This document shows, piece by piece, positions 89 to 53,706 of a DNA stretch of 64,000 bases; position 1 is the first letter of the stretch; each line of letters starts with the position of its first letter. A model generated the notes under the pieces. That model did not search any database. It was not told the DNA's origin and worked only from the letters and a program-made list of their open reading frames with translations. The position numbers were made by a program, and so were the translations under genes. Source of the DNA: Porticoccaceae bacterium (GTDB taxonomy: Bacteria > Pseudomonadota > Gammaproteobacteria > Pseudomonadales > Porticoccaceae); contig JALOAH010000011.1 in assembly GCA_023228865.1 (NCBI GenBank), forward strand, positions 1 to 64,000, in the 5' to 3' direction.

Positions 89-119
89 CTGAGGTGTTCA
101 GAAAATCTTGACCAGGTCA
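89..119. repeat. right terminal inverted repeat of the IS3-family element
   Basis: Read inward (minus strand) the segment starts TGACCTGGTCAAGATTTTCT and continues GAACACCTCAG. It has the TGA start and GGACACCT-like inner part typical of IS3-family ends, and it begins one base after the transposase stop. It contains the last six codons and the stop of higA. The left end and the target duplication are outside the window, so the outer boundary is an estimate. Confidence 0.6.
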
Positions 120-358
120 GTCCAAAGATCGTAAGCATTTTGCAGCCTGAGCCAGTGATCGGCCGATGGTTTTTTAAAAACCAGCTCAAGCCGTAGAGCC
201 ATTTCAGGAGTGATAGAACCTCGGCTATTTAAAACCTTGGATAATGTTTTACGGCTTATATTTAGGTGCTCAGAGGCATCAGTAATTGTTACACCCGTTG
301 GTTCAATTACTAACTCTTTGAGAATTTCACCCGGGTGAGCCGGATTATGCATACTCAT
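98..358 (-). CDS. higA: HigA-family antitoxin with IS-derived C-terminus
   Basis: This 86-residue protein is the antitoxin partner of HigB: it neutralises the toxin and, through its helix-turn-helix, represses the operon. The family opening MHNPAHPGE is present at residues 3-11, and an XRE-type helix-turn-helix follows at about residues 24-45 ([16 protein letters not shown]). The family motif [10 protein letters not shown] is near the end. The start ATG overlaps the higB stop by one base (TAATG), so the pair is translationally coupled. The last residues (DLVKIF) are encoded by the terminal repeat of the neighbouring IS3 element, so the native C-terminal tail was replaced. The core fold looks intact; function is likely but not certain. 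Confidence 0.88.
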
Positions 359-636
359 TAGTGGTAATCCTCATAGTTAACAATTTCAGCATCCTTACCA
401 GTAAAGCGAAAAGTAACCCTCCAATTGCCACTTACAGATACAGACCAAATTCCTTTTCGGTTCTCCTTCAATTCGTGCAAGCGGAGACCGGGCAAATCCA
501 TATCCTCTGGACTTTCTGCCTGGTCAAGGTTAGTGAGAATTAGCCTCAAGCGTTTGGCGTGCTTCGCGTGAATTCCTGAAGTTTTGCCGGAACGGTAGAA
601 CCGTTCGAGTCCTTTGTGTACGAAGCTAATAATCAT
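358..636 (-). CDS. higB: HigB-type toxin (RelE superfamily mRNA interferase)
   Basis: This 92-residue protein is a ribosome-dependent mRNA endonuclease toxin by family. It shows the HigB signature: F-x-x-K-G-L-E-R-F-Y at the N-terminus, [19 protein letters not shown] in the middle and [18 protein letters not shown] at the end. It precedes its antitoxin, the usual higBA order. It is the first gene of the most distal visible integron cassette, whose 5' core box lies at 685-691. The leader holds a short inverted repeat (AACC/GGTT, about 647-660) that might be the HigA operator. Toxin-antitoxin modules are common integron cassettes and favour retention of the array. Confidence 0.92.
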
Positions 637-1179: not shown

Positions 1180-1533
1180 CTATTTTAAAATGCTGTTTAT
1201 GTACTCTTTTAATGCAGTGGCATTGTTGTACGTTTGTTCTTTTGACGAGTATAAAAAACTTACACAGCCACGTTTAACATGAGGCAACAACTCAGCTACA
1301 ACCTCAACGTTTGAATCAAGCTCATAGAAATATCGCTTTTTAAACTCAAGCCATTTTTTAGTATCGTGGTTATACCATTTGCGAAGTTCATTTGAAGGCG
1401 CGACAGATTTTAGCCACAAATCTACCTTTGCATCTTCTTTGGAAAGCCCTCTTGGCCAAAGCCTATCTACCAAAATTCTAAATCCATCTTTAGAATCGGC
1501 ATGGTCATATACTCGCTTTATTTTAATATTCAT
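1180..1533 (-). CDS. DUF488 family protein (YeaO-like), integron cassette gene
   Basis: This 117-residue protein matches the DUF488/YeaO family: it starts with [20 protein letters not shown], followed by [13 protein letters not shown], then [19 protein letters not shown] and a C-terminal SS-x-x-x-x-Y-NNA-x-x-LKEY. The biochemical role of the family is unknown; the protein is small and cytosolic. It lies between a full attC (1549-1650) and a stemless attC (1149-1168), so it is cassette 2 and may now only move together with the downstream secreted protein gene. Confidence 0.9.
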
Positions 1534-1548
1534 AATCTAAATTGAAGC

Positions 1549-1650
1549 GTATAACGCCGCTGCCAAGGCGCAAAGTAAAGCTGGCGCAGCCGTTGCGCTA
1601 GCAAGGGATGTGACAGCTTTACTTTGTCGCTCTTGGGCGCTTTGTTATCT
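1549..1650 (-). other. attC recombination site (cassette 1 / cassette 2 junction)
   Basis: This 102-bp imperfect palindrome is bounded by GTATAAC and GTTATCT. The arms AACGCCGCTGCC..CAAAGTAAAGCTG and CAGCTTTACTTTG..CTTGGGCGCTTTGTT pair over most of their length, with a perfect 13-bp inner stem (CAAAGTAAAGCTG). The stop codon of the HNH-like cassette gene (1645-1647) lies inside the distal box. Size and organisation are those of chromosomal-integron attC sites. Confidence 0.9.
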
Positions 1651-2743: not shown

Positions 2744-2757
2744 ATATGCAAACAGTA
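2738..2757. promoter_or_regulatory. LexA (SOS) box upstream of intI
   Basis: TACTGTATATGCAAACAGTA fits the gammaproteobacterial LexA consensus (TACTGTATATATATACAGTA) at 17 of 20 positions, with both CTGT and ACAG half-sites intact. It overlaps the predicted -10 element and lies 21 bp upstream of the assigned GTG start. Confidence 0.85.
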
Positions 2758-2778
2758 TTCTTGAAAAGGAGTTCATCC

Positions 2779-3794
2779 GTGTCTTCATCGCCATTCCTTC
2801 AATCGATTCGGGACTATATGTTGGTTCGCCGTTATAGCCTCAGAACAATAAAGTCATATTTATATTGGATCAAGTTCTTTATTCGCTTTAACGAGAAACA
2901 ACATCCGAACACTCTTGGCGCCAATGAAGTAACCACATTTCTGACATTTCTAGCGGCGGAACGGAATGTTGCTGCCGCTTCCCAAGCCATTGCTTTGAAT
3001 GCGCTGGTGTTTCTTTACAACAAATACCTTGAACGCCCCCTCGGCGATGTGAGCCATTTCAACCGTTCCAGCAGGCAGCGTAAATTGCCAGTGGTTCTCA
3101 CCAACACCGAGGTAAAAACTCTTCTGGGTCAGTTTAAGGGCACCCAAAAACTGATGATCGCATTGCTGTACGGTTCAGGTTTGAGGCGCATCGAATTGCT
3201 ACGGCTTCGAGTGAAAGACATTGACCTGGACAATTTTCAGGTGCAGGTTTGGCAGGGAAAGGGTAATAAGCACCGATTAACAACGTTGGCGGAAGTGCTT
3301 GTTGCGCCACTCAATGCACAAAAACAACTGGTTGCAAGCTTGCTTGAGAGCGACAGGCAGTGCGCAGGGTTTGGTGGTGTCTGGTTGCCCGGGGCTTTGG
3401 CAAGAAAATATCCCGGCGCCCCTTTTGAATCCGGTTGGCAGTATCTTTTCCCTTCTTCAAGGCTCAGCTTCGAGCCCGGCACCACCATATTACGCAGTCA
3501 CCATTTTGATGAATCCAGCCTTAACAAAATTATTCGAGCAGGGGCTCACAGGGCGGGGATTGAGAAACAGGTGACCAGTCACACCCTACGCCATTCATTC
3601 GCTACCCATTTATTGCAGTCGGGTGCAGATATTCGCACCGTACAGCAACAGCTTGGCCATGCCGACGTAAAAACCACCGAAATTGCCGCTTCCGGCGTCC
3701 TGCCTCTGGCGGCACTTGTGCGTCCTGCACATCGTACACGCACGTACTCAAACAAGGAGCGCATGGCGTAAAGAGTCCTCTTGGCAACCTTTAG
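2779..3794 (+). pseudogene. intI: integron integrase, disrupted before the catalytic tyrosine
   Basis: A tyrosine recombinase of the IntI class would excise and insert gene cassettes at attC/attI. Counting from the GTG at 2779 (preceded by AAAAGGAG at 2764-2771, 7-bp spacing), catalytic Arg136 (GSGLRRIE), His268/Arg271 (SHTLRHSF) and His294 (LGHADV) are present, and the IntI-specific insert motif ARKYPGAPFESGWQYLFPSS lies at about 209-228. After KTTEI a 50-bp insertion (3685-3734) shifts the frame; the current reading frame runs on to 3771 and lacks the tyrosine. Directly after the insertion, in a different frame, YTHVLKQGAHGVKSPLGNL then TAG (3735-3794) restores the expected C-terminus. An ATG at 2746 would start inside the LexA box and is less likely. 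Confidence 0.9.
3685..3734. other. 50-bp insertion inside intI
   Basis: The segment separates codons for KTTEI from codons for YTHV, which are contiguous in IntI proteins. It contains the 9-mer GCGTCCTGC twice, 25 bp apart, and a small hairpin TGTGC-GTCCT-GCACA. Its length (50) is not a multiple of three. No flanking target duplication of more than a few bases is apparent. Confidence 0.8.
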
Positions 3795-35861: not shown

Positions 35862-36072
35862 GCAATAAAATAGATTTCCCATCTATTTTATTGCGCACTC
35901 TTAAAGTAACGGGCGGGCATAGACGTTGCCCCGTTATTAACCCGGCAATCCAATAGACATCCATACCTATTGGATTGCACACCTCGGAAACACTGGCGGA
36001 AATACGCGAATTCCCTTGTGTTTCCGAGGCTTGCATTGGCCTTCGGCCAATGGCGGCACATCCTTGTGCCGC
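35862..36072. repeat. array of six consecutive hairpins
   Basis: Six inverted repeats fill 211 bp with almost no spacing. Stems: GCAATAAAATAGAT (35862-35894, 14 bp), TAACGGG (35907-35936), GCAATCCAATAG (35945-35978, 12 bp), CCTCGGAAACAC (35982-36029, 12 bp), CATTGGCC (36034-36052) and GCGGCACA (36053-36072). The stems differ in sequence, but most loops carry TCC-containing words. It separates two convergent genes, so a bidirectional terminator role is possible. Confidence 0.8.
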
Positions 36073-53475: not shown

Positions 53476-53510
53476 CCGCCAGCCGCCACGGCGCTGGCTG
53501 CGACAGCGCC

Positions 53511-53633
53511 TCAACGCTTTTGGTTTTGATGATCGCGCATGTCCTTTTTGATGAAAAGGTAGAGGCCGCCGAAAAACAGACAGACCAGTGCCACCGTTGC
53601 CAGGCCTGCAAAAACAACCGTATCCATATACAT
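53511..53633 (-). CDS. small single-pass membrane protein (40 aa)
   Basis: A short reading frame encodes MYMDTVVFAGLATVALVCLF then FGGLYLFIKKDMRDHQNQKR. The first 28 residues form a strong transmembrane helix followed by a positively charged tail, like small accessory subunits of membrane complexes. An internal ATG (53627) gives a 38-residue form. A good ribosome binding site is not evident. I do not know the family. Confidence 0.5.
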   Translation of the reverse strand: MYMDTVVFAGLATVALVCLFFGGLYLFIKKDMRDHQNQKR

Positions 53634-53706
53634 AAAAACACTCACCGTGATGAAGAAATCTCGGCTTCAGATTATTCCCTTACAGTTTTTATGGTATTGA
53701 CGCAGA

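Follow-up and report, generated by a model that had tools for sequence, protein, structure and literature searches.

The integron integrase gene intI in the 64,000-nucleotide stretch of Porticoccaceae DNA analysed here (the window) is broken by a 50-nt copy of a dispersed two-hairpin repeat, which lies directly 5' of the codon for the catalytic tyrosine (3685..3734, + strand). The copy was delimited by the tblastn borders and recognised by alignment, fold, covariation and a covariance model, with matching repeats in other genomes. Besides the window, 28 integrase genes or protein clusters carried the repeat at the same codon boundary and in the same orientation: 25 protein clusters, two genes of genome G133 and one of genome G287. 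The identity of the insert, its recurrence, its position and its orientation were directly established. The best reading of the whole, to which we give a probability of about 0.7, is a recurrent insertion, fixed in position and orientation, of a REP/RPE-like mini-element before the Tyr codon of intI, by which the nucleophile is removed or displaced.

The interrupted gene was called as an ORF at 2746..3771 (+), with an alternative start at 2779. Its N-terminal and catalytic part (2779..3684, +; start possibly 2746) was supported by the ORF, tblastn, Pfam PF13495 and PF00589 and NCBIfam TIGR02249, and ends one codon before the catalytic Tyr. The TIGR02249 model 'integron integrase' matched with 391 bits (cut-off 265), identifying the product as IntI, and was covered at positions 1-297 of 315, the catalytic Tyr and the C-terminus being absent. 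In the uninterrupted relative P0002, which is partial and 90% identical, the same match reached position 315. When uninterrupted P0021 was used as tblastn query, the window matched in two pieces in different frames, the first (residues 5-302) at 2791-3684 and the second, the C-terminus, at 3711-3791, where YTHVLKQGAHGVKSPL could still be read. The gap between the two integrase parts is 50 nt (3685-3734) and starts right behind the pre-Tyr codon. As 50 is not a multiple of three, the protein ends in a repeat-encoded tail without the Tyr nucleophile. The codons from Tyr onward with their own stop (3735..3794, +; from the tblastn piece 3711-3791 and the sequence) are out of frame with the gene start, and the present ORF runs through an unrelated tail to an early stop (3735..3771, +; ORF call). 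Judging from the integrase family, loss of strand cleavage is expected, and the product should still bind but should not cut attI or attC. Among the closest matches listed, the named integrases were from a Porticoccaceae MAG (65%) and Methylophaga lonarensis (70%).

A preliminary description of this DNA had already placed a 50-bp insertion at 3685-3734 before the Tyr codon, and the two-frame tblastn result and the end of the TIGR02249 match at 297/315 bore this out; the ORF call, tblastn and TIGR02249 likewise agreed with its view of a product without the nucleophile and with an unrelated tail. The uninterrupted relatives that it had suggested looking for exist, as P0002 illustrates. Its end coordinate, 3794, is correct for the stop of the old C-terminal frame but not for the frame as now read, which stops at 3771. 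It had missed that the insert is no one-off but a widespread repeat that sits at the same site in the 28 other integrase genes or clusters.

The surroundings of intI contain small genes on the opposite strand and one inverted repeat that resembles attC. This inverted repeat (1571..1626, -), located by an inverted-repeat search between cassette genes, has arms of 26 nt that are 85% complementary, and its likeness to the attC motif makes it a putative attC site. The genes include a HigA/HigB-like toxin-antitoxin pair (98..636, -; Pfam PF01381 and PF05015), probably one or more cassette genes, and toxin-antitoxin pairs of this kind are usual stabilisers of chromosomal integrons. A DUF488-type cassette gene belonging to the Pfam subclade 'inactive DUF488-N3' lies at 1180-1533 (-). 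Adjoining intI is a cassette-type ORF of 292 aa with paired Cys motifs (1645-2523, -), for which profile searches of Pfam and NCBIfam gave nothing at E<=0.01. Farther away, Rfam matched the PhrS sRNA at 53509-53675 (-) with 39.8 bits (gathering 37).

Folded as DNA, the repeat unit formed two hairpins at -12.8 kcal/mol, with z-scores of -3.5 (top strand) and -2.4 (bottom strand). In the insert, hairpin 1 (3685..3713, +; fold and covariation) consists of an outer 5-bp stem, an inner 3-bp stem and the loop GTCCT, and hairpin 2 (3717..3731, +; fold and conserved pairing) has a 5-bp stem with the loop GTCCT. The arms of hairpin 2 were kept in 56 of 66 BLAST-chosen copies, while shuffled copies gave a mean of 23.3 and a maximum of 30. 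At the second pair of the outer stem, the 59 copies of this set that were scored had T-A 35 times, C-G 22 times and a mismatch twice. An earlier covariation set had been made up mostly of script-picked copies in which hairpin 2 was required, and the analysis was repeated on the BLAST-picked copies. The 9-mer GCGTCCTGC occurs three times in the window, against 0.77 expected (3 was reached in 4 of 100 shuffles). Both copies inside the insert are the loops of the two hairpins plus their closing pairs, so that the duplicated 9-mer, taken in the preliminary description as a possible pointer to the origin of the insert, is a repeated hairpin loop and not a duplication scar.

Dispersed copies of the repeat were found in a survey set of 369 genomes from the class of Alteromonas marina. 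BLAST with window:3640-3760 gave matches in 35 of the 369 at E<=1e-3, many of them bounded by the insert borders, although part of these 35 genomes match the IntI portion only and not the repeat. A covariance model built from 43 copies had matches in at least 81 of the 369 genomes at E<=1e-3, and its copy numbers per genome are lower bounds, since no more than 16 candidates were scored in each; in G133, at least 16 copies, the ceiling, were detected, where BLAST had found 3-4. The insert itself scored 71.8 bits (E 5.8e-14, window) and is among the 43 training sequences of the model. Neither BLAST nor the covariance model found a clear further copy in the window, a 14-bit match at 36046 being at chance level. 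The consensus of the repeat unit starts with G[CT]CGCT and ends mostly with CG. In 121 distinct covariance-model matches from 100 sources, the length was 51 nt in 88, 52 nt in 12 and 50 nt in six, and the window and G133 account for three of these six with their intI copies. Thus the intI copies for which DNA was available were 50 nt long in three of four cases, whereas ordinary copies are mostly 51 nt. Units of 51-52 nt stood in tandem at the loci L018, L023 and L049; at L023, six repeat matches fell within 1.7 kb, four of them inside one 2331-nt open stretch.

As a dispersed two-hairpin repeat with many copies and compensated stems, the repeat can be classed as REP/RPE-like, and it is apparently a non-coding, small, dispersed mini-element with a usual unit of 51 bp. 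No match to the repeat in the window was obtained from Rfam at gathering thresholds, and neither this repeat nor a palindrome hotspot in intI turned up in the open-licence literature; this family of 50-51 nt with two compensated hairpins may therefore be uncatalogued. Searches of viral contigs with the repeat pattern and with the junction pattern gave no hit each, and those of plasmids and phages gave just one weak partial repeat match per search.

The recurrence at the Tyr boundary was first visible among the best 120 of 7996 homologues, six of which (P0001, P0005, P0008, P0019, P0026 and P0057) had a repeat-type tail after KTTE[IM]. With the addition of tail searches, 25 of the 223 proteins fetched were insert-bearing. 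The tails of 16 of these 25 clusters were consistent with a 50-nt insert that is out of frame, five (P0131, P0134, P0136, P0138 and P0139) had 17 in-frame residues before YTH, corresponding to 51 nt, and four (P0132, P0133, P0135 and P0137) had a stop inside the insert. At the DNA level, the insert was seen in the window, in the two G133 genes (50 nt each) and in G287 (51 nt). Its orientation was identical in 29 of 29 cases including the window; four of these were read from DNA and the others from the encoded tail. These integrases belong to separate lineages: before the insert, 24 clusters were 44-68% identical to the window IntI, P0001 99% and the G133 pair 46-47%, and no two of the 25 insert-bearing clusters were more than 91% identical. 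G287 is a weak case, a remnant, because only residues 280-321 align and the sequence upstream is not integrase. At this locus (L061), a C-terminal integrase remnant holds the 51-nt insert in frame, and upstream of the last ~40 codons the sequence is non-integrase with stops.

All protein searches were biased towards this site, since two used insert-bearing tails and the query for homologues was the window product including its tail; the listing of the best 120 of 7996 homologues also favours late insertions. The evidence that is blind to position is smaller: in a genome search with the covariance model, done without any intI sequence, the only listed matches inside a listed integrase were the two of G133, both at the Tyr boundary (compared by eye). 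When 34 integrase loci were searched by BLAST with two versions of the repeat, no copy was found. Interior insertions of at least nine residues among the 223 proteins comprised the five in-frame ones at the Tyr boundary, one repeat-like insertion elsewhere in P0130 and an unrelated one at the N-terminus of P0132. Besides the usual insert, P0130 has another element-like one, in frame and ~16-17 residues long, after LENGY. Separately, the conserved GKGGK loop of P0122 is lengthened by extra GGK repeats, probably a small tandem expansion.

In genomes, insertion at this site is rare. An integrase was present at E<=1e-50 in 137 of the 369 genomes, and among the 150 matches listed only the two of G133 end at the insert. 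The junction pattern, with up to three mismatches, occurred in 19 of the 369 genomes and was exact only twice, both times in G133; of the other 18 junction-pattern loci, L107 alone has a copy of the repeat, with a flank that does not encode YTHV. With up to two mismatches, the pattern was absent from 151 genomes of the order of G346 and from three of the order of G287. An integrase in G328, considered as a further case, was rejected, as its early end has another cause. The in-frame carriers retain Tyr, with 17 extra residues before it. The helix at 299-309 around Tyr in the AlphaFold model of uninterrupted P0021 is absent from that of P0136, one of these carriers, but with a pLDDT below 50 for the region in both models this is no more than a hint that the helix is lost.

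The distribution of the insert on integrase trees called for repeated changes. In a 219-row FastTree (27 rows with and 192 without insert, built from the columns before the insert; P0020, P0030, P0127 and P0156 omitted as having no cut point and P0079, P0108 and P0119 for other lesions), presence and absence needed at least 12 changes, nine of them forced by supported branches. A 69-row tree (25 with, 44 without), which omits the short P0126, P0128 and P0131 and whose uninterrupted rows are a chosen and sampled part, needed 10 changes, at least six of them forced, and a single clade was rejected (p-AU 6.6e-40). G287 is in neither tree, some rows sit on long branches, and the changes counted are gains or losses alike. 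Close relatives also differ at the site: P0019, with the insert, is 88% identical to P0082, without it, and G342, a relative of G133, has an empty site. The two G133 integrases share 550 of 903 nt upstream (61%) and 48 of 50 in the insert (96%; insert counted by eye). Similarly, the window and P0122 are identical at 134 of 229 residues upstream (59%) and differ at one of 29 tail residues, and P0019 (64%) carries the insert version of the window except for one residue. These comparisons show some integrases to be much older than the inserts within them.

A 5' G preceded 97 of the 121 dispersed copies, together with a weaker CG, and there was otherwise no clear target. A target duplication was sought through shared flanks, and none was seen beyond the 5' G and the weaker CG, a pattern that the intI copies do not follow; of the four for which DNA was available, three lack the 5' G. 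Long open stretches contained 47 of the 121 copies, compared with 296 of 605 random positions, so copies are not enriched in coding sequence. One orientation and phase was shared by 33 of the 47, as if a tolerable peptide had been selected, and the intI copies have an orientation that differs from that of these 33. Either the intI copies form a targeted subfamily, or they are what has survived at a special site. At one locus (L041, ~1481-1552), the opposite strand carries a repeat copy in frame in a copper-oxidase-like gene (named by eye). A flank there that resembles YTHV codons was considered as a second recombinase target and discarded, given the copper-oxidase-like reading of the opposite strand.

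In the preferred reading of recurrent insertion, the two-hairpin repeat would insert in a fixed orientation exactly between the pre-Tyr codon and the Tyr codon. An out-of-frame copy would yield a repeat-encoded tail, with which the nucleophile and the cutting of attI and attC would be lost. The site may be recognised by a recombinase or transposase acting on a folded single strand, and insertion, not transfer from one intI gene to another, would have brought the copies in. The Tyr boundary is regarded as an insertion hotspot because separate lineages were struck repeatedly and in the same orientation. We put forward more tentatively, at below even odds, that the Tyr-coding stretch is the specific homing site, in one fixed orientation, of a minimal non-autonomous hairpin element. 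The element would probably move as a folded single strand, perhaps aided in trans by a recombinase that could even be an integron integrase, and would form a natural recurrent integron off-switch across Gammaproteobacteria.

The main rival to a hotspot is exchange, in which one or a few insertions were followed by short-tract recombination between intI genes, or alternatively an old insertion by repeated precise loss. The change counts on the trees cannot separate gain from loss, and near-identical tails in distant genes are also compatible with exchange. In the window and P0122, for example, the insert and the codons that follow it are near-identical despite 59% identity upstream, and the sister of P0122, P0121 (91%), differs there. 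However, the two G133 inserts are 96% alike and their immediate left flanks differ (CAGATG and ATGATT), therefore a homologous tract would need to end exactly at the insert. In addition, several versions of the insert occupy the site: the arms of hairpin 2 differ between the window and G133 yet still pair, and there are copies of 50 nt, copies of 51 nt and stop-bearing kinds. We hold the hotspot to be most likely and exchange or loss to be rather unlikely. A reversible DNA switch, where precise excision by the host or the integrase turns the integrase on in part of the population, could be compatible with the intact downstream codons and with related genes with and without insert (P0019 and P0082, G133 and G342). 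However, inspection by eye revealed no direct repeats beside the intI copies that could guide precise excision, and such a switch is very unlikely. An assembly artefact or a chance one-off insertion can practically be dismissed. P0001 is 99% identical to the window IntI over 330/330 residues, comes from another source ('ena') with six member sequences and has the same tail, which makes an assembly slip very unlikely, and the insert recurs in other genomes.

Another possibility, which the preliminary description had named as its alternative, is that ribosomal bypassing or frameshifting restores a Tyr-containing integrase. The reason to consider it was the length of the gap, which equals that in T4 gene 60; there, according to the available excerpts of PMC11194080, a 50-nt gap with stem-loops is accompanied by matching GGA take-off and landing codons and a UAG after take-off. 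The interrupted intI resembles this in having a 50-nt gap with hairpins inside a coding region. Both G133 genes and the window have also kept the codons downstream of the gap intact, and the tails of P0121 and P0122 are compatible with purely silent changes in the Tyr frame past the insert (bases inferred from protein). The last point is weakened if the insert postdates the split of P0121 and P0122, which it may, and intact downstream codons are expected of young insertions, which the searches favour. The GGA pair and the UAG described in these excerpts have no counterpart in the three 50-nt cases known from DNA. All three genes, that of the window and the two of G133, have TCG as the pre-Tyr triplet, and none of their inserts has an in-frame TCG (two have TCC), therefore identical take-off and landing codons are missing; the frame is open through the insert, with no stop after take-off. 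Furthermore, 51-nt and stop-bearing copies occupy the same site, and elsewhere in genomes the repeat occurs at scattered places that offer no such context. Bypassing is therefore very improbable, and recurrent insertion remains the reading that we prefer.

The presence of the repeat at the Tyr codon in many integrases suggests a natural, recurring way to switch integrons off. Whether it serves as a dedicated integron parasite or silencer, and what recognises the Tyr-boundary site, can now be tested, as can the way in which REP-like repeats are mobilised when no transposase is known for them.

Among known systems, REPs tagged GTAG or CGTC are small dispersed stem-loop repeats, some of which lie within ORFs, and the CGTC class has no adjacent transposase in the excerpted text of Di Nocera et al. 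(2013, PMC3733652). The present repeat is likewise small, dispersed and formed of stem-loops, with some copies in ORFs. However, CGTC REPs are described there as having one stem of 8-9 bp, a terminal tag and a CCA tail, whereas this repeat has two unlike hairpins in 50-51 nt. It thus lacks the terminal unpaired tag on one stem-loop that marks the GTAG and CGTC families, a separation drawn from the excerpted family descriptions in PMC3733652 and not from alignments. The same excerpts mention no recurrent REP target in one gene family. Rickettsia palindromic elements (RPE) are found in frame inside genes, which recalls the 47 of 121 copies in long open stretches, but they are about 150 bp long in the excerpts of PMC10969869 and PMC3733652 and not about 50 bp, and the intI copies, in comparison with RPEs so described, lie mostly out of frame and in another orientation. 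MITEs are similarly short, repeated and gene-inactivating, but they have terminal inverted repeats and a target-site duplication, whereas no terminal inverted repeat was seen here by eye and the flanks show mainly the 5' G bias; no parent transposon was found in the flanks of the copies. Integrase loss itself is common. Stops, frameshifts or indels had disrupted nearly one third of the intI genes in the part of Nemergut et al. (2008, PMC2426708) available, where the loss is reported as scattered decay with mostly separate lesions, whereas here one mini-repeat family breaks one codon boundary many times.
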